From positions 1 through 22,546 of IMG/VR virus record IMGVR_UViG_3300022074_000407: a stretch of DNA of 22,546 nt; one strand, 5' to 3'. The notes beneath the pieces were generated by a model that searched no databases, had not been told where the DNA came from, and was given only the letters and a program-made list of their open reading frames with translations. The DNA is from a virus. How positions within the stretch are numbered: position 1 is the first letter of the stretch; the number at the start of each line of letters is the position of its first letter. The translations under genes were made by a program, and so were the position numbers. Positions 2,503 through 22,546 of this stretch are shown here, one piece after another.

Positions 2503-2695
2503 TAGATACTATTTTACCTTTTTCGTATTGTTCTATATATTCTCTATCGTATAAAACCTTGCCACCTATCTTAAAGAACTCAGGCCCTTGACCTTTGCCT
2601 CTTTGATTTTCTAAGGTGCGTGGACTGATCTTCCACCTTTGTGCAAGCTCTTTCGTGTCGAAAAATTTGCTAGTATCGGTATTTTCAAATTCCAT
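2483..2695 (-). CDS. Excisionase/AlpA-like helix-turn-helix protein
   Basis: A 70-residue MerR/excisionase-type DNA-binding protein. The core DTKELAQRWKISPRTLENQRGKGQGPEFFKIGGKVLYDREYIEQYE is the HTH_17 pattern: the recognition helix follows the turn at 'KIS', and the wing carries 'FFKIGGKVLY'. I chose the ATG at 2695 because GGGAG lies 5 bases upstream; an in-frame ATG at 2755 would add residues rich in Asn/Lys with no ribosome-binding site. It is first in the minus-strand recombination operon, close to the integrase, so it may direct excision or control the divergent promoters at 2696-2784. The choice between excisionase and repressor cannot be made here. Confidence 0.75.
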   Translation of the reverse strand: MEFENTDTSKFFDTKELAQRWKISPRTLENQRGKGQGPEFFKIGGKVLYDREYIEQYEKGKIVSNGSRNI

Positions 2696-2720
2696 AATAC
2701 TCCCTTTTTGTACTTTATAG

Positions 2721-2749
2721 TTGTTAAATTTACACGATAGCATTAGAAT
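2721..2749 (+). promoter_or_regulatory. Candidate sigma-70 promoter for the plus-strand island
   Basis: TTGTTA at 2721-2726 and TAGAAT at 2744-2749 are separated by exactly 17 bases, ahead of the only two plus-strand genes. On the opposite strand TTGCAT (2755-2750) and TAAATT (2732-2727), also 17 apart, could drive the HTH gene, so two divergent promoters would overlap in this 89-bp gap. The minus-strand one is weaker. Confidence 0.5.
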
Positions 2750-2784
2750 ATGCAATATAGTAAGTTAAATAAATAGGAGAAATA

Positions 2785-3087
2785 ATGAGTATAGATGATG
2801 TAACACCCGAGCAATGGGATAGAGCGATTGATAATAAAGCTACCAACAGACAAATCGGTGGCGATCATTATAAAAAGCTCAAAGTATCACCAACGGACTA
2901 CATTTACGCTAACAACTTGTCTTGGAATCTGGGTAATGTTGTTAAATATGTAACCAGAAATAAGGACAATGTTGTGAATGACTTGTTAAAAGCCAAGCAC
3001 TACATCGACTTAGAACTTGAGATGGTGCATGGTGTAGATGGTGAGGGTAACAACATTGGGCCTTATAGAATAGAAACTAAGGTCTAG
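2785..3087 (+). CDS. DUF3310 family protein (nucleotide kinase-like annotation)
   Basis: A 100-residue protein with the DUF3310 signature: QIGGDHYKKLKVSPTDYI, then 'NLSWNLGNVVKYVTRNK' and 'DLLKAKHYIDLELE'. This family is widespread in phages and often labelled a SaV-like nucleotide kinase, though no P-loop is visible and biochemical proof is thin. AGGAGA lies 5-6 bases before the ATG at 2785. With the gene after it, it forms a two-gene plus-strand transcript opposite to all other genes in the window, which suggests separate timing of expression. Family assignment is confident; the activity is not. Confidence 0.85.
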   Translation: MSIDDVTPEQWDRAIDNKATNRQIGGDHYKKLKVSPTDYIYANNLSWNLGNVVKYVTRNKDNVVNDLLKAKHYIDLELEMVHGVDGEGNNIGPYRIETKV

Positions 3088-3098
3088 GAGTTATGAAT

Positions 3099-3305
3099 AT
3101 GAACTTTGCAGACTTTGATGATCCTGTAAAAAACGAATGTGAAGGTAGAAAGCCTATACATTTGGACAGAGATTTAATGAGAGATTTTGTAATGTTTTGT
3201 CGTGCAAACGAAAAAGATCCTCAATGTGTAGCTGAATACCTAATTAAGTTAGGTATTCATACACCAAATGAGAATCGCGTTTGCATTGACATAAATAATT
3301 TATAG
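3099..3305 (+). CDS. Small hypothetical protein of the plus-strand island
   Basis: A 68-residue protein beginning MNFADFDD, with a predicted helical middle (LDRDLMRDFVMFCRANEKDPQCVAEYLIKLGI) that could be a small ribbon-helix-helix-type fold, though I do not recognise it. AGGAG overlaps the stop of the preceding gene; its spacing is 8 bases to the ATG at 3099 but only 2 to an ATG at 3093, so 3099 is preferred. The gene contains an 11-bp perfect inverted repeat (3233-3259), and its last 6 bases overlap the convergent integrase gene. Confidence 0.7.
   Translation: MNFADFDDPVKNECEGRKPIHLDRDLMRDFVMFCRANEKDPQCVAEYLIKLGIHTPNENRVCIDINNL
3233..3259. repeat. 11-bp perfect inverted repeat near the integrase
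   Basis: TGAATACCTAA (3233-3243) and TTAGGTATTCA (3249-3259) are exact reverse complements around a 5-base centre. Counted as 10-bp arms, the centre is 7 bases (ATTAAGT). It lies inside the small plus-strand gene, ~40 bp beyond the integrase stop codon. The geometry resembles a tyrosine-recombinase core site. There is no T-run on either side, so it is not an intrinsic terminator. Confidence 0.6.
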
Positions 3306-4580: not shown

Positions 4581-6188
4581 CTACTCGTTTTGTTCTGCCT
4601 CTTGCGCTAATAAACTTTGTATTCTTACGAGGTTTGCATAAGGTGAAGCCGATCTTGTGGCTTCTGCTACTGACATACTTAGACCAGGAATATCTTTAAC
4701 CAATGGTCTTGAAAGAACACCTGATCCATAAGCTGTCAATCCTGAAACCTTTGGACTTGTTCCTAATGCTGTTAATGCACCAACACCTAAGTCAGCTGCT
4801 CCTGTGGCTAGTACACCATATGGACTAATCTGTCCTGCTATACCTCTACCACCTAAAGGAGATAATGCTTGGCCTGCAACTCTTTCTGCTAAAAATAGAT
4901 CATCTACAGAATCTAAATTTCTAAAGTTCTCTAATCTTGCACCAAAGTTTGTATTTACATTATTACGCATTACTGATTGTAATTTTCTCAGAGCTGTATC
5001 AGCAGAGGCTTTGTTGCCACCAATTAAAGATTTTTGTATTTCGTCTAAAAGAGAGGCAGCATCAGAATAATCTTGCATTACTTTTGCATATTTTGGTTCA
5101 GCATCAACAATGGCTTTCTTAACTATATTTTTTGTTCTATCAACAGCAAAAGCAGCTTGTTTTGTTTTATCTGTAATTGATGGTTTTAAATCGTCAATAG
5201 CTATTTTTAAGGCATCAATACCTTCTACTGTATGCAAGGATTTATCTGCTTTCCATGCTTTAACAAGTTTATTAATTTCATCAATTTTAGTTTGTGTGGT
5301 TTTACCGCCCTTTAAAACTTTGCCTTTTTCTCCTGTAATATAAAATTCACCTAATTGATCTTTGATTAATTTTTCAACAGCATCAAAGTCTATTTTTTTA
5401 GATGAATCTATAGCTTCCATTCCTTGTTGATAAGCTAAATTCTTTTTTCTTCTCATTTCATCTATACCAGACTTAGCTTTGGCTACAGTCACTTCAGGCG
5501 ATTCTTTGCCTAAAATATTTCTTAAAAAAGCTGAAGATGCTTGACCGCCTTCTTGACCAGCCCTTACAGCAGTTTTTACTGCCTCTGCTCCTGCGCCTGT
5601 TAGTTTGCCTGATAATTCAGCAACACCTGCTCCTGTTGTTTTTGCAGTTTTTCCTACCAACATAAGAGGATCGACAGCTTGACCTACTTGAGATGCTTTA
5701 GCTCCTATTGTTCCAAGTTGTCCGGGTGCTTTTGCTGCTAATGTTCCGCCAAAAGTAAATATTGCAGAAACGTCTGACATAAAACCAACAGGATCTTCTG
5801 CGATAGTCCTTTTAATATTTTCCATGCCACCATATCGATTAGCTAAAAATCTACCAACATCTCTAGCAACTTTTTCATTTTCTTGTTCACCAGGTATTGC
5901 TAACTCAACAACTCCTTTCCCAAGGGTTGCAATATTTTTTGCAAAATCTAATGGTTCTCTTATTGGGTAAGTAATGTCTTTTCCAAATTGTACTGCGCTT
6001 GGAAATAAGTTTGCCATAGCTTGTGTAGCAACGTCTGTACCTGATAACTGTTTTTCACCAACGAATTGATTATTCTTAATTGCTCTTTTAATTTCTTTTT
6101 GTTTTTCTTGCTCTGATAGACTTGCAAAATCTTTAGACACCATCAAATCACCTTGAGGTATTTCTAAGATTGTAAATTCTTCGTTCAT
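4581..6188 (-). CDS. Internal virion / DNA ejection-type protein
   Basis: A 535-residue protein, last of the virion gene run. It has a soluble N-terminus (MNEEFTILEIPQGDL), Ala/Gly-rich semi-hydrophobic stretches (around 145-220 and 435-490) and a charged coiled middle (about 240-400). Alternating amphipathic and Gly/Ala-rich segments late in the tail module are typical of proteins carried in the capsid and ejected with DNA in podoviruses. No lytic transglycosylase motif is visible. Its ATG overlaps the stop of the gene upstream as ATGA. Function is inferred from composition and position. Confidence 0.65.
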   Translation of the reverse strand: MNEEFTILEIPQGDLMVSKDFASLSEQEKQKEIKRAIKNNQFVGEKQLSGTDVATQAMANLFPSAVQFGKDITYPIREPLDFAKNIATLGKGVVELAIPGEQENEKVARDVGRFLANRYGGMENIKRTIAEDPVGFMSDVSAIFTFGGTLAAKAPGQLGTIGAKASQVGQAVDPLMLVGKTAKTTGAGVAELSGKLTGAGAEAVKTAVRAGQEGGQASSAFLRNILGKESPEVTVAKAKSGIDEMRRKKNLAYQQGMEAIDSSKKIDFDAVEKLIKDQLGEFYITGEKGKVLKGGKTTQTKIDEINKLVKAWKADKSLHTVEGIDALKIAIDDLKPSITDKTKQAAFAVDRTKNIVKKAIVDAEPKYAKVMQDYSDAASLLDEIQKSLIGGNKASADTALRKLQSVMRNNVNTNFGARLENFRNLDSVDDLFLAERVAGQALSPLGGRGIAGQISPYGVLATGAADLGVGALTALGTSPKVSGLTAYGSGVLSRPLVKDIPGLSMSVAEATRSASPYANLVRIQSLLAQEAEQNE

Positions 6189-16360: not shown

Positions 16361-17296
16361 TTAGGATGTGCTTAAATCTGCAACAACACCATGAGCAGCT
16401 TCGTTGGACACTTCTAGTCCATACTCAACTACGATCATTTTTGTTTCTGCATCACCAATAGTAGCTATATCTACTGTTTGGAAATTTCTTAAATAAGCAA
16501 CTTTAGCAAATTCTGGATCTACTAAAAGAAGCGATCTTTCTCTTGATCTGTTTGATGGAACGATTTTGAGTTCACCAAAGTCAGATGAATAGATAGATAC
16601 TGAAGCCTCTACAGTATTTTGATCCACAAATTGTCTAGCTTGTGATCTGCCTGTGAAACCACTAATAACTTGTTTGTTATGTGGGCCACAAATAGCCAAT
16701 GATGGTTCACCACCATTTGAGAAAGCTAACTCAAGTGTATCTTTGAGTAGAGTTTCAGTTAAAGCTCTTTGAGTTCCGTCAGTTGGAGCAGCACCACCGC
16801 CTGTAGAAGCACCTGAAGTACCTCTTGAGTCGTTTGATGTGATCCAAGATTCAAAACCACCAGTTACACGAGCAGTTGTCGCATTACCAGTTGTTTTAGC
16901 TCCTTTTTGACAGAGAGCCTCTTCCATATCTCTTTTAAGGGCTTTAGACATAATAGCAAGTTGATGTGCCATTTCTGACCTTTTACCTGCTGGATCTGAA
17001 CCCTCTTGAGATCCTGTTACAGTTGCATCTCTTTTTGAGATCATACATACGTTGCTTGCTCTTACAGTAGCAGTTGAAGCTGCTCTTGAAAGTTCGAAGC
17101 CTTCTAATTCTCCACTTGCACTTGGTGTAGGTAGAGATTCTGTTTGCCAATCAAACACCACATTGCTCACATTTCGTGTACCGATTGAGGACATGAACGG
17201 AGTTTGCATAGGAGAGATGTTGTAAATGATATTACTTAAATCTTCTCTATCAGCAGTTGCGGTGTAAGTATCAAAAGCGTTAGTTACTTTTGCCAT
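16361..17296 (-). CDS. Major capsid protein (SU10/DUF5309-like)
   Basis: A 311-residue HK97-fold capsid protein. The N-terminus MAKVTNAFDTYTATADREDLSNIIYNISPMQTPFMSSIG is the hallmark of SU10-like/DUF5309 capsid proteins, followed by VFDWQTESLPTPSASGELEGFE and the C-terminal LLLVDPEFAKVAYLRNFQTVDIATIGDAETKMIVVEYGLEVSNEAAHGVVADL. Length is typical. AGGAG is 7 bases upstream of the ATG. It follows the scaffold gene and ends at a strong intrinsic terminator, the usual plan for a highly expressed capsid unit. Confidence 0.93.
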   Translation of the reverse strand: MAKVTNAFDTYTATADREDLSNIIYNISPMQTPFMSSIGTRNVSNVVFDWQTESLPTPSASGELEGFELSRAASTATVRASNVCMISKRDATVTGSQEGSDPAGKRSEMAHQLAIMSKALKRDMEEALCQKGAKTTGNATTARVTGGFESWITSNDSRGTSGASTGGGAAPTDGTQRALTETLLKDTLELAFSNGGEPSLAICGPHNKQVISGFTGRSQARQFVDQNTVEASVSIYSSDFGELKIVPSNRSRERSLLLVDPEFAKVAYLRNFQTVDIATIGDAETKMIVVEYGLEVSNEAAHGVVADLSTS

Positions 17297-17314: not shown

Positions 17315-18322
17315 TTACTTTAATAATTGTTCAAAAACTTTAGCTGCATCTGAGGGTTTCCCAGTTTTAGCTAACCTTTGTTTTGCTTTCTTCACAGGAG
17401 TTACTGATCTTGGTCGGTTCGTAGTACCAGGTCTTGCAACCCTAGCCTTTGCTTTTTCCGTTGGTTTTTTCTTAGTTGCTTTAACAGTTTTGTTTTGCAA
17501 CCAAGCATTTCTTAAACCAAGTAAGGCTCGGTAGTCATATATTTGATTAATTTCATCTTGGGTATAACCAAGATCATTAATCGCATAGTCACGAATAGCA
17601 TTTTTTTCTTTTTGGGCTAATTCTGCATCTTGCCATTCTGGCAAAACTTCAAGCAATTTATTTTGACTATACTCAACATATTGTTGAAGTTCTTGTTGTT
17701 GCTTTACATAAGACTCCTCTTGAAGTCTTTTTTGTTCAGCATTAACAGCACTTAGTCTTGCTCTTTTATCATCCCAAACCTGCTTTTCTCTGACATAAGC
17801 GATTGGATCATCTTCATATAACTTGTTCCAATCTGGCTCGTTTGCCAATTCACCCTTTAATTGGGTTTCCATCTCAGGTAACAACTGTGCGTAAATAGCA
17901 TCCTTTTGCGCTAATTCTTGTTGCTGTTGCTCAATGGTTTTCCGTTGTTGCGACAGCTCTTGAGTTTTGCGCGTGTAATCTTGCTGACGTGAATATCCGC
18001 TTTGGAGTTCCTCAAGCGTGACCTCTACCTCTTCTCCGTCAACTCTGACTTTGTAGTGGGTGGGTTGCTCTTGTTCGTCCTCAACCTCAGTTTGTTCTTC
18101 GTCATCAATTTGATCATCAAAATCGGATTCTTCATCTTCAACCATCTCTTCTTCAAGTTCGGCTGCTTCTGGTAATTCATCCTCTTCAATGACTTCCTCT
18201 TCTACTTCATTTGTGACTGCTTCTTTAACTGTTTCCTCTTGAGGAGTTAAGAAACTTTCAAACGCAGAAGTAGCTAGTTCTCCTTCAGTTTGTAAAGCAG
18301 TCGGTTTTCCGTTATTGCTCAT
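17315..18322 (-). CDS. Capsid scaffolding protein
   Basis: A 335-residue protein with a very acidic N-terminal third (residues ~28-85, nearly all E/D), then the motif YKVRVDGEEVEVTLEELQSGYSRQQDYTRKTQELSQQRK, a long Gln-rich coiled coil (~125-215) and a basic C-terminus (KATKKKPTEKAKARVARPG). The 'VDGEEVEVTLEEL..GY.R..DYT+KTQ' motif is diagnostic for scaffold proteins of this phage type, and the basic tail would contact the capsid shell. AAGGAG lies 5 bases before the ATG. It is directly upstream of the capsid gene with an 18-nt gap. Confidence 0.9.
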   Translation of the reverse strand: MSNNGKPTALQTEGELATSAFESFLTPQEETVKEAVTNEVEEEVIEEDELPEAAELEEEMVEDEESDFDDQIDDEEQTEVEDEQEQPTHYKVRVDGEEVEVTLEELQSGYSRQQDYTRKTQELSQQRKTIEQQQQELAQKDAIYAQLLPEMETQLKGELANEPDWNKLYEDDPIAYVREKQVWDDKRARLSAVNAEQKRLQEESYVKQQQELQQYVEYSQNKLLEVLPEWQDAELAQKEKNAIRDYAINDLGYTQDEINQIYDYRALLGLRNAWLQNKTVKATKKKPTEKAKARVARPGTTNRPRSVTPVKKAKQRLAKTGKPSDAAKVFEQLLK

Positions 18323-18648: not shown

Positions 18649-19254
18649 TTATTTAACTAGTGGTGTTTTCCCAATTCCAAATAAACCTTGTATTGCTTGT
18701 TGTTTTAAATCATCTTTAAATTTATCAAAGGTGTTTTGCGCACCTGTGATACCTGATCCAATTCTACCAAGGCCACCAAACAATCCACCGACTTGTGGTT
18801 GTGGCATTTGTGGAATGTTTAACTGAGGCATCCTAAAATCAATGTTTGGTCTAATGTTTGAAAAATCAAAATCCCTTATATCAAAATCACCAGGCATAAA
18901 GTCACCAGGCATAAAATCTCTTGGTGGTGGCATCCTTACATCTTCAACATTTGGTCTAGGCATTGGCAAAGGTACAACCCCAAGATCAGGTAGGGGTGGT
19001 CTGTTAATATCTTCTTGTGTATAACCGCCCGGTTGGTCAGGTGAATATGAAACCCCACTTGAAATCATTTGTGATGCAGGTATTCCGCCTGCTATTGATC
19101 TTGCATAATCAAAACCACTTGAATAAGACGTGTCAGGTGCAACGTAACTTGTATTACCCATTCCACCCATTCTACCAAATCCCCTATTTGGATCATATGG
19201 GTTTTTTATTGGTAGTCCTGTTGGTAAGCCTGTAAAAAAATTAAATCCGTTCAT
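18649..19254 (-). CDS. Disordered Pro/Gly-rich protein
   Basis: A 201-residue protein rich in Pro, Gly, Met, Phe and Asp, with little predicted fold. It contains a direct repeat DFMPGDFMPGDF at about 113-124 and a row of P-M/P-Q turns (RMPQLNIPQMPQPQ). The C-terminal 45 residues (GGLFGGLGRIGSGITGAQNTFDKFKDDLKQQAIQGLFGIG) are amphipathic and may bind membrane or another protein. It sits between the lysis cassette and the scaffold. It could be a minor head protein; I do not recognise a family. Confidence 0.65.
   Translation of the reverse strand: MNGFNFFTGLPTGLPIKNPYDPNRGFGRMGGMGNTSYVAPDTSYSSGFDYARSIAGGIPASQMISSGVSYSPDQPGGYTQEDINRPPLPDLGVVPLPMPRPNVEDVRMPPPRDFMPGDFMPGDFDIRDFDFSNIRPNIDFRMPQLNIPQMPQPQVGGLFGGLGRIGSGITGAQNTFDKFKDDLKQQAIQGLFGIGKTPLVK
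18887..18916. repeat. 15-bp tandem duplication
   Basis: TCACCAGGCATAAAG at 18887-18901 is followed at once by TCACCAGGCATAAAA (18902-18916), one base different. It encodes the doubled FMPGD unit in the disordered protein, and looks like a recent slippage duplication. Confidence 0.8.
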
Positions 19255-19506: not shown

Positions 19507-19878
19507 TCAGTAGCTCCAGATGTGAGGGCGTGGGCTATAATTTTCCACTTCTGCGATATCCAAATGTATAAATCGTCCATTGCCTTTTTGATTAACTCCT
19601 ATGCCTGTAAAACCATGTGCTATACCTTTGTATAACACCTCTAATGCTTTTTGGTGACTAACAGCTATATCAACTGCTAGACCTAGTGCGTGTGTGCCTG
19701 GCTTGCTTTTCTTAGCTTCTATAGGATGTTCGGGACATCTATAGCCAGATGATATAACTAGGGGGAATCCTAGGTCATCACGCAATGTTTGTAGTTTATC
19801 AACTAATTTATGATTTATCTCGTTTTTACCACAATGTTTGCACTTGAATTCATCAAGTTTAAAGTTTTTCCAAGTCAT
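19507..19878 (-). CDS. Endolysin, M15-family peptidase
   Basis: A 123-residue zinc peptidase that would cut peptide cross-links of the cell wall at lysis. The core SSGYRCPEHP (43-52), GTHALGLAVDI with H63 and D70, and FIHLDI with H105 are the substrate loop and the three zinc ligands of the Peptidase_M15A/D-Ala-D-Ala carboxypeptidase group; it ends in PHIWSY as many do. An N-terminal CKHCG pair may add a small zinc site. There is no signal peptide, so export needs the holin encoded just upstream, whose stop overlaps its ATG (ATGA). Confidence 0.92.
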   Translation of the reverse strand: MTWKNFKLDEFKCKHCGKNEINHKLVDKLQTLRDDLGFPLVISSGYRCPEHPIEAKKSKPGTHALGLAVDIAVSHQKALEVLYKGIAHGFTGIGVNQKGNGRFIHLDIAEVENYSPRPHIWSY

Positions 19879-20342
19879 CTTTTGTTTGAGCTTCCGAAAT
19901 AGAATGAAATCACGCTTGTAAATATGCCCGTAATCGCGCCGATAACTATCATCGTCACGTCATCGTTTGCCTCTGGCTGCGGGTAGAGAGTTATGATTGC
20001 AATATAGCTAAAGAAACCAACAGCACATGAAATACCTAAAATTTTAGGTGTCCAATCATTGCTGAATTTATCTCTAGCATCTTGCACATCTTCGGTTTCT
20101 AGTGCAAAAACATCAACCTCAAGCTCTTTCATTTGCACTTCAAAATCTTTCTCTGCTTTTTTGAGAGCAACCATTTGATCGGCTGTAAGATTTTGCATTG
20201 CATTTTCTATAGACTTTGGACTGTTAGGTACGCCCAATACACTACTTAATATTTGACCAGCTTGGCCACCTAAAGGGCCACCTAAAGCTGCTCCAAGTGT
20301 GGGTGCTAAACTACCTACTATGCTTTTTATTTTGTTTTTCAT
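19875..20342 (-). CDS. Holin (GTA_holin_3TM-like)
   Basis: A 155-residue membrane protein. The N-terminus is Gly/Ala-rich and amphipathic (SIVGSLAPTLGAALGGPLGGQAG), a charged helix follows, then EDVQDARDKFSNDWTPKILGISCAVGFFSYIAII and a last membrane segment MIVIGAITGIFTSVISFYFGSSNKR. The '(V)xDAR...DWTPKIL' motif before the first strong transmembrane helix is typical of 3-TM holins shared by phages and gene transfer agents. It would form the membrane lesion that releases the endolysin, with which it overlaps by 4 nt. No strong ribosome-binding site is visible. Confidence 0.85.
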   Translation of the reverse strand: MKNKIKSIVGSLAPTLGAALGGPLGGQAGQILSSVLGVPNSPKSIENAMQNLTADQMVALKKAEKDFEVQMKELEVDVFALETEDVQDARDKFSNDWTPKILGISCAVGFFSYIAIITLYPQPEANDDVTMIVIGAITGIFTSVISFYFGSSNKR

Positions 20343-20433
20343 TTTTTTTCTTTTGTCGCTTGGTATTGTTTTCCATGTACTTGCTTAATTCAGCAAAGGT
20401 TTCAAATCTAATTTTTTTCTCAGGCTTACTCAC
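20311..20433 (-). CDS. 40-residue basic peptide, GTG start
   Basis: This short frame begins with GTG at 20433 and reads (M)SKPEKKIRFETFAELSKYM, then an Asn/Lys/Gln-rich basic tail ending in KHSR. Its GTG overlaps the TGA of the upstream micro-gene as GTGA, the same coupling used elsewhere in this genome, and this is my main reason to call it. It runs 32 nt into the holin gene in another frame. Function is unknown. Confidence 0.5.
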   Translation of the reverse strand: MSKPEKKIRFETFAELSKYMENNTKRQKKKNEKQNKKHSR

Positions 20434-20576
20434 TTGTGCTTGGTAATAACTTCAAACTCAGCAGAAGTAGATGCTCCTTTATGCGGTACAAACTTACCTT
20501 TATTTTTCATCAAACGATAACCTTTACCAACTTTCATAAAATGATAGCCTTTTGGAGCTTTAACTTTCTTTTTCAT
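20430..20576 (-). CDS. 48-residue basic peptide
   Basis: It starts MKKKVKAPKGYHFMKVGKGYRLMKNKGKFVPHKG and ends in FEVITKHK. The first half has two 'GYHFM.VG/GYRLM.NKG' beta-like units, a pattern seen in tiny marine phage proteins. Its ATG at 20576 overlaps the previous stop as ATGA and its stop overlaps the next start as GTGA. High net positive charge suggests nucleic acid binding; this is inference. Confidence 0.7.
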   Translation of the reverse strand: MKKKVKAPKGYHFMKVGKGYRLMKNKGKFVPHKGASTSAEFEVITKHK

Positions 20577-20692
20577 TTTCTTTTTTTCTTAGCTTTTTTA
20601 AGTTTTTTAAAGTCTGCGCTAGTAATTTTAGTTCTAGGCTTTGCAACTCTAGCAAGTTTCTTTTGTTTTGGTGAATATTTGCTAAATGGCAT
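20573..20692 (-). CDS. 39-residue Lys/Arg-rich peptide
   Basis: It reads MPFSKYSPKQKKLARVAKPR followed by a helix TSADFKKLKKAKKKRK. 'MPF(S)K.SPKQKKLARVA.P+..IT.ADF..L' is a pattern I have seen in small marine phage genes near structural modules. The start shares one base with the upstream stop (TAATG) and the stop overlaps the next start (ATGA). It is strongly basic; DNA or RNA contact is likely but unproven. Confidence 0.72.
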   Translation of the reverse strand: MPFSKYSPKQKKLARVAKPRTKITSADFKKLKKAKKKRK

Positions 20693-20754
20693 TATTTTTT
20701 AACCTTTTTCTTTTTGCCTTTCTTTTTTTTAGGCTTTCCATATCCGTAACCCAT
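20692..20754 (-). CDS. 20-residue Gly-Tyr/poly-Lys peptide
   Basis: A tiny gene: MGYGYGKPK and then an almost pure Lys run with single Gly and Val, 20 residues in all. A good ribosome-binding site (GGAG, 5 bases upstream) sits at the end of the preceding gene, and the stop shares a base with the next ATG. Very short Gly-Tyr plus poly-Lys peptides recur in marine phages. The strong RBS makes real translation likely. Confidence 0.6.
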   Translation of the reverse strand: MGYGYGKPKKKKGKKKKVKK

Positions 20755-20755
20755 A

Positions 20756-20995
20756 TTAACTCCTTTTCTTTGACTTTTTAGGCCTTAATAAATCTGCATC
20801 CGCCTTTCTTGCACCGCCTTTGCCTGTCGCAAAACTGCGAACACGCCCGGAAGCCCAACCATGAGCAGATACACCTGGACGAGAACCAGAGCTGTAGTAA
20901 GCACCAAGCCCACGTTTGTAGACTTTTCTGAGTGTAGACTTAGATATTCCGCTTGATTTGGAATACTTATCTATGACTTCTTCTTTACTTGCCAC
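20756..20995 (-). CDS. DUF5824-like small basic protein, GTG start
   Basis: A 79-residue protein: (M)ASKEEVIDKYSKSSGISKSTLRKVYKRGLGAYYSSGSRPGVSAHGWASGRVRSFATGKGGARKADADLLRP. The 'L+KVY+RG..A+..G.RPG......W...RV.SF..G.......D.DL' motif is that of DUF5824, found in many marine phages, with unknown function. It starts with GTG at 20995, supported by GAGGG 6-7 bases upstream, and overlaps the previous gene by 11 nt. A small helix-rich DNA-binding or structural role is a guess. Confidence 0.8.
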   Translation of the reverse strand: MASKEEVIDKYSKSSGISKSTLRKVYKRGLGAYYSSGSRPGVSAHGWASGRVRSFATGKGGARKADADLLRPKKSKKRS

Positions 20996-21173
20996 TTTTA
21001 GCCCTCATTTTTGAGATTCGATTCATCATTGCAGGTGTTAATTTACCTGCTCTGTAAAGTTTAGCTGTTCGTTTGATTTCTGCTTCGCGCTTTTTCTTAT
21101 TCTTAGCGCCTGAAACATATTTTTTTGGAACACCCCCTTTGGTTTTTGGAACTTTCCTAAACTTACGTTTCAT
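20985..21173 (-). CDS. 62-residue basic protein
   Basis: It starts MKRKFRKVPKTKGGVPKKYVSGAKNKKKREAEIKRTAKLYRAGKLTPAMMNRISKMRAKSGK. The part 'GVPKKYVSG.KN+KKREAEIKRTAKLY+.GKLT...M.RI.+.R' is a recurring motif in marine phage micro-genes and often lies beside DUF5824 genes. I use the ATG at 21173, which overlaps the stop of the preceding peptide as ATGA, rather than a TTG two codons earlier. It is highly basic and helical; function is unknown. Confidence 0.78.
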   Translation of the reverse strand: MKRKFRKVPKTKGGVPKKYVSGAKNKKKREAEIKRTAKLYRAGKLTPAMMNRISKMRAKSGK

Positions 21174-21271
21174 AGCCAATGATTAATCTTATCTTTAATG
21201 AATTCTTTGTGTTTATCATAGACTAAATAACCTACGACACCTACGAGTATAATTATTATTAATATTTCCAT
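21170..21271 (-). CDS. 33-residue single-pass membrane peptide
   Basis: It starts MEILIIIILVGVVGYLVYDK and ends in a charged tail with KEFIKDKINHWL. Residues 2-18 form one hydrophobic helix, so the peptide should sit in the inner membrane with a basic cytoplasmic tail. Its TGA overlaps the next ATG (ATGA), which supports it as a gene. No Shine-Dalgarno is visible; a TATAAT lies 6 bases before the ATG, so it may be made from a leaderless message. It could modify holin action, by position only. Confidence 0.6.
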   Translation of the reverse strand: MEILIIIILVGVVGYLVYDKHKEFIKDKINHWL

Positions 21272-21277
21272 AGTAGG

Positions 21278-21306
21278 ATTATACCTACCATTTCTTACAA
21301 GACCAA
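21278..21306 (-). promoter_or_regulatory. Candidate promoter with perfect -10 box
   Basis: On the minus strand TTGGTC (21306-21301) and TATAAT (21283-21278) are 17 bases apart. The -10 box is perfect, the -35 box matches three of six. It is flanked by GTAGG and CCTAC arms, so it also lies within a 16-bp inverted repeat. The predicted start of transcription is at or next to the ATG of the membrane peptide (21271). It could add transcription for the micro-gene and lysis cluster. Confidence 0.45.
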
Positions 21307-21536
21307 TATCTAGGGGTTAGCTTATCTGGTGGGTTGGTATCGCACTTATGTCTAGCACGAAAGGATTTTCTTCTTTTGGGTTGGTCTTTTTTGATTGTCA
21401 TTTTGGGATCACCAAAGCGAACAAGTTTTACTTTGTCACCTTTCTTTGCAAGTACAGCAAACTTTTTAGATTTGCCTGGTGTTCTTTTGGGTTTGTTATA
21501 ACCGCTAAATCTTTCACCTCTGTATGTAATCGCCAT
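21285..21536 (-). CDS. DUF6321-like small basic protein
   Basis: An 83-residue protein: MAITYRGERFSGYNKPKRTPGKSKKFAVLAKKGDKVKLVRFGDPKM, then RRKSFRARHKCDTNPPDKLTPRYWSCKKW. The 'GYNKPKRTP...K+AVLAK.GDKVKL(V/I)RFG' and 'RRKSF+ARH......DK.+.+YW' blocks are those of DUF6321, a family of unknown function frequent in marine phages. Two cysteines in the C-terminal block might bind a metal with the nearby His. Its ATG shares a base with the upstream stop (TAATG). Confidence 0.82.
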   Translation of the reverse strand: MAITYRGERFSGYNKPKRTPGKSKKFAVLAKKGDKVKLVRFGDPKMTIKKDQPKRRKSFRARHKCDTNPPDKLTPRYWSCKKW

Positions 21537-21709
21537 TAGTGTAAAGTTTTCTCCTCGAAACTTATGATCTCTGAGTTTTCATTTACCTGACCACCTGACA
21601 TAAGTATCATTATTTGAAGTGCATGATCTTTATTTTTAGCTTTGATCTCAGAACCTTTATAGATCATATCTCCTTCCATTACTTCAATGTCAAATATTTT
21701 GTGGGACAT
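21536..21709 (-). CDS. 57-residue small protein after the portal gene
   Basis: It reads MSHKIFDIEVMEGDMIYKGSEIKAKNKDHALQIMILMSGGQVNENSEIISFEEKTLH, a compact beta-alpha-beta-like protein. Unlike its neighbours it is slightly acidic. I place the start at 21709, 20 nt inside the portal 3' end; a longer frame from 21784 would lie deeper within portal coding sequence. The pattern '(F)xIEVxE...+.G..I.A.....AL+.....GG' recalls small phage proteins of unknown role. Its stop overlaps the next ATG by one base. Confidence 0.65.
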   Translation of the reverse strand: MSHKIFDIEVMEGDMIYKGSEIKAKNKDHALQIMILMSGGQVNENSEIISFEEKTLH

Positions 21710-22546
21710 TTCCAGTAAATAGTCCTTGAGCTTGGTCTTTTGCAGTTTGCCTGATAGTTTCTCGGTCACGCTCCATGATAGCATTTATTTCTGCTATGTT
21801 GACCTGGGTTCCATATTTACCAATAAGTTCTGCGGCTTTAAGTCTAATCTGTGCTTCTTCAATATCTCTGTTTCGATCATCGTCCATGATAATCTTCATG
21901 CGATCTGTTTCTGCATCAATGATAGCTTTCTGTGCTTGGACTTGTGCTTTTTGTGCTTCAGCTTGTGCGAGTAACTCAGCCGCATCAGGCTTAGTTTCTT
22001 GCGGTGCGGGTGGCATTGGTGGTACTTCAGTATTGACAAAGGATTCAGGATCTTTAAATCCTGCCATCTCGATCATTCTTGCAAGTGTGTTTGAATATTG
22101 CTGTAAGGACACCATAGGATTGCTTGGCCCTAGAGTTTGTAAGATTTGTTCTTGTTTGCCTGCGAGTGAGCCAAGGATTGCAAACTTCTCTTCGTCTGAA
22201 GATTTAGAGATTGCAACATTACATACTAGGTCTTTGTCAGCATCCCAATATCTAGGATCAACCGGAACAAACTTACCATTAAGCCTGAAGACATCTTGTG
22301 CATTTTGATGTTTGATAACCAAGTTATTAACCAAAGTAAATAGATCTTTCATACCGCCTTCGGCAAAGTGTCTGCAAATTAATTCGATACGACCTTGTGC
22401 GCCAGACATGGTTGCTGCTACCGCAGCTTTGGTGCTTGATTGTAAAGCATCAGCATTTAAGCCTGCTGAAGCCTTAGATACACCTGTTCTATTTTCTTTA
22501 CTTTCATCTAAGTAACCAAGAACAGGGAACGCTTCCTTGCCAACAA
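21690..22546 (-). CDS. Portal protein, C-terminal part (cut by window edge)
   Basis: The frame is open to the window end and adds about 45 residues before the first internal Met. The segment GYLDESKENRTGVSKASAGLNADALQS is the well-known portal motif (RTGV..A..GL..DALQ) of P22-like portals, followed by RIELICRHFAEGGMKDLFTLVNNLVIKHQ. The C-terminus holds a long Ala/Gln/Glu-rich coiled coil (AELLAQAEAQKAQVQAQKAI ... MKIIMDDDRNRDIEEAQIRLKAAELIG), as in other podovirus portals whose ends form a barrel. The portal ring is the vertex through which DNA is packaged. The N-terminal part and presumably the terminase lie beyond the right edge. Confidence 0.88.
   Translation of the reverse strand, partial: VGKEAFPVLGYLDESKENRTGVSKASAGLNADALQSSTKAAVAATMSGAQGRIELICRHFAEGGMKDLFTLVNNLVIKHQNAQDVFRLNGKFVPVDPRYWDADKDLVCNVAISKSSDEEKFAILGSLAGKQEQILQTLGPSNPMVSLQQYSNTLARMIEMAGFKDPESFVNTEVPPMPPAPQETKPDAAELLAQAEAQKAQVQAQKAIIDAETDRMKIIMDDDRNRDIEEAQIRLKAAELIGKYGTQVNIAEINAIMERDRETIRQTAKDQAQGLFTGNVPQNI

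Follow-up and report, generated by a model that had tools for sequence, protein, structure and literature searches.

Nine coupled genes downstream of the portal gene

The virus record IMGVR_UViG_3300022074_000407 was analysed over its whole 22,546 bases (hereafter the window), which probably represent a genome fragment. At 20311-21709, its minus strand holds nine coupled micro-frames, labelled A to I, that are flanked upstream by an SU10-type portal gene and downstream by J, a gene for a membrane protein of 155 amino acids (aa). The nine lengths, the coupled junctions and the two GTG starts reported in a preliminary description, which was made from the sequence alone, were all recovered. Junctions are of the TAATG (-1) and ATGA or GTGA (-4) kinds, with others at -11 and +1 and a single gap of +13. 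The start of A overlaps the 3' end of the portal gene by 20 bases, and the 3' end of I overlaps J by 32 bases. A scan of the operon for promoters and terminators revealed nothing convincing that would divide the cluster. The features are given below, with the ratio of non-synonymous to synonymous change (pN/pS) calculated from non-overlapping sequence pairs.

21690-22544, minus strand: SU10-type portal protein, C-terminal part, extending beyond the window (PF23899, 2.8e-60; phrog_1216, portal)
21536-21709, minus strand: A, 57 aa, acidic, isoelectric point (pI) 5.2; 119 portal-linked relatives; pN/pS 0.226, p 4.5e-55
21285-21536, minus strand: B, 83 aa, net charge +21 (phrog_7595, 1.8e-22); pN/pS 0.134
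21170-21271, minus strand: C, 33 aa, hydrophobic and neutral, presumed membrane peptide; 18 relatives; pN/pS 0.172, p 5e-6
20985-21173, minus strand: D, 62 aa, net +22, conserved GVPxKY motif (phrog_38321, 3.5e-10; alignment); pN/pS 0.176
20756-20995, minus strand: E, 79 aa, GTG start, net +15, DUF5824 (PF19141, 2.6e-14); pN/pS 0.174
20692-20754, minus strand: F, 20 aa, 55% Lys, zero acidic residues, AAGGAG upstream; pN/pS 0.286, p 7e-12
20573-20692, minus strand: G, 39 aa, net +16, invariant KITxAD motif (alignment; homologue in HTVC106P); pN/pS 0.206
20430-20576, minus strand: H, 48 aa, net +12, APxGxHxM...LMK...HKG motif (alignment including HTVC106P, HTVC104P and CRP-901); pN/pS 0.241
20311-20433, minus strand: I, 40 aa, GTG start, net +9; 15 relatives; pN/pS 0.177, p 2e-8
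19875-20342, minus strand: J, 155-aa membrane protein (phrog_1544, 4.3e-26, a PHROG of unassigned function)
19507-19878, minus strand: K, 123-aa M15 peptidase/endolysin, the downstream border (PF08291, 1.2e-13; phrog_894, endolysin, 6.5e-35)
17315-18322, minus strand: head scaffolding protein, acidic, net -30 (phrog_3927, 1.4e-55)
16361-17296, minus strand: SU10-type major capsid protein (PF17236, 3.9e-88)

The Pfam matches of the portal and capsid proteins identify an SU10-type head module, with the scaffold and capsid genes lying further downstream of the cassette. From gene position, the cassette would be expressed late. The preliminary description had placed the cluster between portal and holin. 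The portal was borne out; J, however, had no match to GTA_holin_3TM (PF11351) or to any other holin in Pfam, PHROG and NCBIfam searches. Relatives carry PF11351 at the place of J (the positional equivalent in locus L090 matches at 2.1e-17), and J was accordingly treated as a holin by position and rejected as a confirmed one. At the position of C, locus L112 carries an unrelated hydrophobic peptide of 35 aa. An NCBIfam search of the nine proteins A to I returned no match. A near relative of the portal was found in one bacterial-genome contig only, binned as Candidatus Pelagibacter, a weak hint as to the host of the phage.

Conservation, selection and charge

Three viral scans yielded 80 portal loci, 79 further DUF5824 loci and 78 further loci of the 83-aa protein. 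The order portal-A-B-(C)-D-E-F-G-H-(I)-J-K is kept with near-identical junctions in dozens of marine viral contigs, and the stop-to-stop lengths of the frames cluster tightly among relatives. For each of A to I, the median NG86 ratio of non-synonymous to synonymous substitution rates (dN/dS) was 0.10-0.41 in the gene's own frame, compared with 0.86-1.99 in the shifted frames. Fisher p values for own-frame purifying selection ranged from 5e-6 to 5e-102, while shifted frames were not significant; these counts take metagenomic contigs as samples, and related sequences are not fully independent. The conserved coupling invoked in the preliminary description, and the purifying selection for which it proposed a test, thus hold for all nine genes.

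Even the smallest frame behaves in this way. F occurs as 26 variants across 44 relatives, each with 9-15 Lys or Arg and no Asp or Glu. Open reading frames (ORFs) resembling F, rich in poly-Lys, were found at 0.42 per kb on the sense strand of 52 portal-to-endolysin blocks, at 0 on the antisense strand and at 0.017 per kb elsewhere. Since own-frame selection, gene order and this contrast in strand and density agree, the nine frames are real genes, far beyond chance, and their conservation suggests that all are translated. We had considered that they might be spurious small ORFs of AT-rich DNA, as A-rich strands are expected to yield Lys-rich peptides. Purifying selection in every frame, the antisense and outside controls and the non-basic character of the other genes in the same AT-rich window refute this idea, to which we assign a negligible probability.

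The proteins had also been described as mostly very basic. This applies to seven of the nine (pI 10.3-11.7), the exceptions being the acidic A and the neutral C. The summed charge of A to I is +102 over 461 residues, compared with -106 for the 24 other genes of the window. The GC fraction is 0.35 in the cassette and 0.38 in those other genes; low GC does not therefore explain the charge. Across the 52 distinct blocks, the net charge of the small ORFs has a median of +78 (range 32 to 111) despite turnover of the families themselves. At the level of individual residues, B, D, E, F and G together showed 43 Lys-Arg exchanges versus 0 Lys-Glu exchanges, a bias that was not seen for H and I.

Relatives of the cassette proteins in other phages

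By sequence and by predicted structure, B corresponds to the C-terminal domain of ICP1 Gp125, with 43-44% identity over B residues 3-81, although B of the window stands alone without a protease domain. Gp125 matches the XkdF protease (PF14550 family) at 7.5e-10; many ICP1 records label it 'capsid protease', and a review of the phage predicts it to be the scaffold protease (PMC9040626). When the AlphaFold2 model of B (predicted local distance difference test score, pLDDT, 87) was compared with BFVD, XkdF, ICP1 ORF125 and other phage proteins were matched, together with weaker matches to an iridovirus protein and a marseillevirus protein. Foldseek matched B with W8QE68 at E 0.029 and TMq 0.60, and with V9SE36 at E 0.18; these matches would bear on the Tlr6F likeness of B (see below) only if the two proteins were themselves Tlr6F. 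Fold comparison of B and E against the PDB produced no significant match.

B is encoded as a standalone protein in cyanophage KBS-S-2A, where its gene separates those for the minor head protein and the coat, in Kolga, close to a gene for head morphogenesis, and in HTVC106P. E, correctly described beforehand as DUF5824-like, is a member of that family (PF19141, 53.9 bits against a cut-off of 25, E 2.6e-14), which has no assigned function and for which a literature search found no paper; its predicted structure is helical (pLDDT 86). In cyanophage MED4-184, E occupies a place in the head operon equivalent to that of B in KBS-S-2A, and in CRP-823 it forms the C-terminal domain of a protein encoded between the portal and protease-major capsid protein genes. 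The two domains share one protein in Melnitz (gp18) and lie in adjacent genes in HTVC008M. Thus, the earlier suggestion that the peptides are made with head proteins or serve packaging is supported in direction, by the joining of B to a capsid protease in ICP1 and by the head-operon positions in cyanophages. More broadly, the families of the cassette turn up again in unrelated phages, among genes for head, tail or lysis.

Such positions might also be explained if the proteins were head assembly or maturation factors absent from the mature head, acting as basic partners of the acidic scaffold, the portal or the protease. The fusion of B to a capsid protease and the location of the cassette between the portal and the acidic scaffold would fit. 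Family presence, however, varies among close relatives, which is unusual for assembly cofactors, and effector enzymes occur in the same slot (see below). We therefore regard this as unlikely.

H is present in HTVC103P, HTVC104P, HTVC106P and CRP-901. In loci L271, L278 and L300 a capsid-like gene is followed by one small basic gene, then H, then a tail-tube-like gene, the names 'capsid-like' and 'tail-tube-like' resting on our own reading of the sequences. The neighbouring basic families are DUF5872-like and DUF6321. In L314, H is directly followed by a true DUF6321 protein (5134-5400, 4e-19), while a poly-Lys ORF and basic genes of DUF5872-like type lie upstream. A search of D and G by tblastn against isolated phages gave no match, G of HTVC106P being found only by inspection of reading frames.

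In the gp25-gp30 block of the isolate HTVC106P, B (gp30), a 20-aa poly-Lys ORF, G (gp29) and H (gp28) follow one another in the order of the window. Further basic proteins come next; their counterparts elsewhere among phages match DUF5872. Unlike the cassette, it lies beside an M15 peptidase rather than the portal, and D and E were not seen there. The poly-Lys ORF, the counterpart of F, is missing from the annotation (L253, 3251-3313, MYMKKKKKKKAKKKSKKKKY, between gp30 and gp29). In CRP-901 (L255) an annotation gap at 2618-3138, just before B, contains three basic ORFs of 54, 91 and 47 aa, the last being H.

B had previously been called DUF6321-like. This assignment was rejected at the Pfam cut-off: the window protein had no match to DUF6321 (PF19846), weak matches occurred in 5 of 77 members of the B family (best 0.0067), and B belongs instead to phrog_7595. 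A likeness to DUF5754/Tlr6F (PF19058) was more widespread. B of the window covered nearly the whole profile at 12.3 bits, against a Pfam cut-off of 27.4, and weak matches were present in 50 of 77 phage members, all of them below the cut-off (best relative E 1.2e-4). None of 8 related phage records exceeded the cut-off and none of 14 controls matched. Because the matches fall below the cut-off, we claim for this small protein likeness and not membership, and the profile is only suggestive of a common origin. Tlr6F proteins, to which no function has been assigned, are described as conserved among polinton-like viruses, nearly all of which have one, and as present also in many giant viruses, several virophages and some phages (PMC4642659, PMC12220804).

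This likeness, together with the charge of the cassette, raises the possibility that the proteins are phage protamines, i.e. basic proteins packaged in high copy and serving mainly to neutralise and condense the genome in the head, in the manner of the core proteins of adenoviruses, baculoviruses or ascoviruses. The charge is extreme, Lys/Arg is kept and Lys-Glu exchange avoided in five families, and none of the 26 variants of F contains an acidic residue. Assuming 360 copies of each protein, as for the T4 internal proteins, the total comes to roughly 37,000 positive charges (102 x 360), close to half the number of phosphates in a 38-kb genome. The protamine-like core proteins of eukaryotic DNA viruses (for example ascovirus P64; PMC6163548) are likewise very basic, and the cassette proteins would, by hypothesis, resemble them in being head-associated, although no homology between the two was shown. 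Conversely, evidence is lacking for much neutralisation of phage double-stranded DNA by basic proteins, and dense packing leaves little space for them (PMC3281028). B and E are, moreover, predicted to be folded domains with conserved non-basic residues, unlike simple protamines. On balance a protamine role appears doubtful. In a broader version, marine tailed phages would neutralise their DNA with a dedicated set of packaged protamine- or histone-like micro-proteins, the toolkit comprising DUF5754/Tlr6F-like, DUF5824, DUF5872, DUF6321 and poly-Lys members and being common in part to polinton-like and giant viruses; this seems to us improbable. If true, it would supply a function for the Tlr6F family, and a high-copy virion result would overturn the accepted view, since basic proteins are held hardly to neutralise phage DNA (PMC3281028).

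A possible head-interior cargo

About ten relatives carry, between A and B or in their vicinity, an additional gene encoding 150-355 aa. Domains recognised in these genes were ART-PolyVal (ADP-ribosyltransferase of polyvalent proteins; 8.1e-9), Zeta_toxin (2.1e-16) and RelA_SpoT (4.2e-7). The zeta-toxin and RelA/SpoT proteins have an N-terminal sequence in common, and another group of slot genes begins with MAMTPETQK...QPxSIAAP. A shared N-terminus joined to swappable effector domains is as expected for cargo sent to a fixed place. Insertions in the A-B slot were recorded in L004, L006, L015, L033, L054, L063, L069, L073 and L080, some of unrecognised type.

Phage T4 provides a precedent. Its internal proteins (about 360 copies each) and Alt (about 40) reside in the prohead core and are in good part ejected, and in T4 relatives other basic proteins substitute for them (PMC9026906). 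Like T4 IPI-IPIII and Alt, the cassette proteins are small, basic (in seven of nine cases) and exchangeable between relatives, and an ADP-ribosyltransferase accompanies them in both cases, as Alt in T4 and as ART-PolyVal in relatives of the cassette. Unlike the T4 proteins, they are known here from genes alone, and the genes are far smaller, more numerous and arranged in one coupled block; no sequence relation, common capsid-targeting sequence or prohead protease was seen in the window.

Taking together the coupling, selection, maintained charge, recurrence in morphogenesis regions, capsid-protease domain and inserted effectors, we propose, at an even chance, that the cassette encodes small basic head-interior proteins that are probably ejected and work like IPI-IPIII and Alt. 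According to this proposal, small, mostly basic proteins would be made late, together with the head proteins, from an exchangeable cassette. Binding to the acidic scaffold or to packaged DNA would bring them into the procapsid, and they would remain with the DNA in the capsid; many would probably then be ejected into the next host cell, there to shield the incoming genome or to act on the machinery of the host. For C a role as membrane or lysis accessory is more likely, and for the acidic A one as portal-linked partner.

Several observations weigh against head cargo. A literature search found no virion proteomics for any of the nine families; ICP1 virions are so far without complete proteomics (PMC9040626). 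Comparison of the nine N-termini by eye revealed neither a shared motif nor a common capsid-targeting sequence, and the window, itself a probable genome fragment, yielded no prohead protease. F is absent from several relatives and apparently frameshifted in L099. Furthermore, head location is not universal, because Melnitz gp18, which carries B and E, has a cytidyltransferase-like N-terminus and B of HTVC106P adjoins the M15 peptidase, away from head genes.

The cassette might alternatively be a moron-like accessory region using the late operon to produce host-directed factors that act within the producing cell, on the ribosome, nucleoid, RNA polymerase or lysis timing. High turnover of gene content would agree with this, as would the interspersed RusA/PDDEXK-like and lysis genes and the location of membrane peptide C near the latter. 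Yet B and E are repeatedly fused or adjacent to head genes in unrelated phages, and H lies shortly downstream of a capsid-like gene; we judge such a role slightly less probable still than that of assembly factors. The preliminary description had offered host takeover as an alternative. Pure early takeover is made less likely by the late, head-module position of the genes, but given exchangeable effectors in the cassette, 'head protein' and 'host-acting protein' may both hold, as in T4.

No account of the cassette as a unit was found in the literature searched, in keeping with the earlier statement that the set has no described function, and none of the libraries searched supplied a function; the individual families are already known as DUFs and PHROGs. 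Conditional on virion evidence, the cassette would be best filed as a variant of the internal-protein kind. Gene annotation has overlooked several of these micro-genes, although the families are under strong selection in widespread ocean phages. Were they head cargo, the T4 internal-protein idea would extend to small SU10-type marine phages and a route toward the function of Tlr6F-like proteins would open. The similar set in the isolated pelagiphage HTVC106P makes the head-cargo idea testable.

Further genes were observed around the cassette. RusA/PDDEXK-like nuclease genes occupy the portal-to-lysis stretch at 1628-1978 of L112 and 2127-2501 of L028, the same group occurring in 19 relatives. 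Downstream of the cassette, the SU10-portal relatives L035, L061 and L071 encode secreted proteins of lipoprotein-like and repeat-rich character; on visual inspection these resemble a curli-type secretion cluster (CsgG-like, curlin-like). Between the lysis genes and the scaffold, the window encodes a Pro/Met-rich protein of 201 aa (18649-19254) that is constant in position and weakly conserved (about 30-45% identity).

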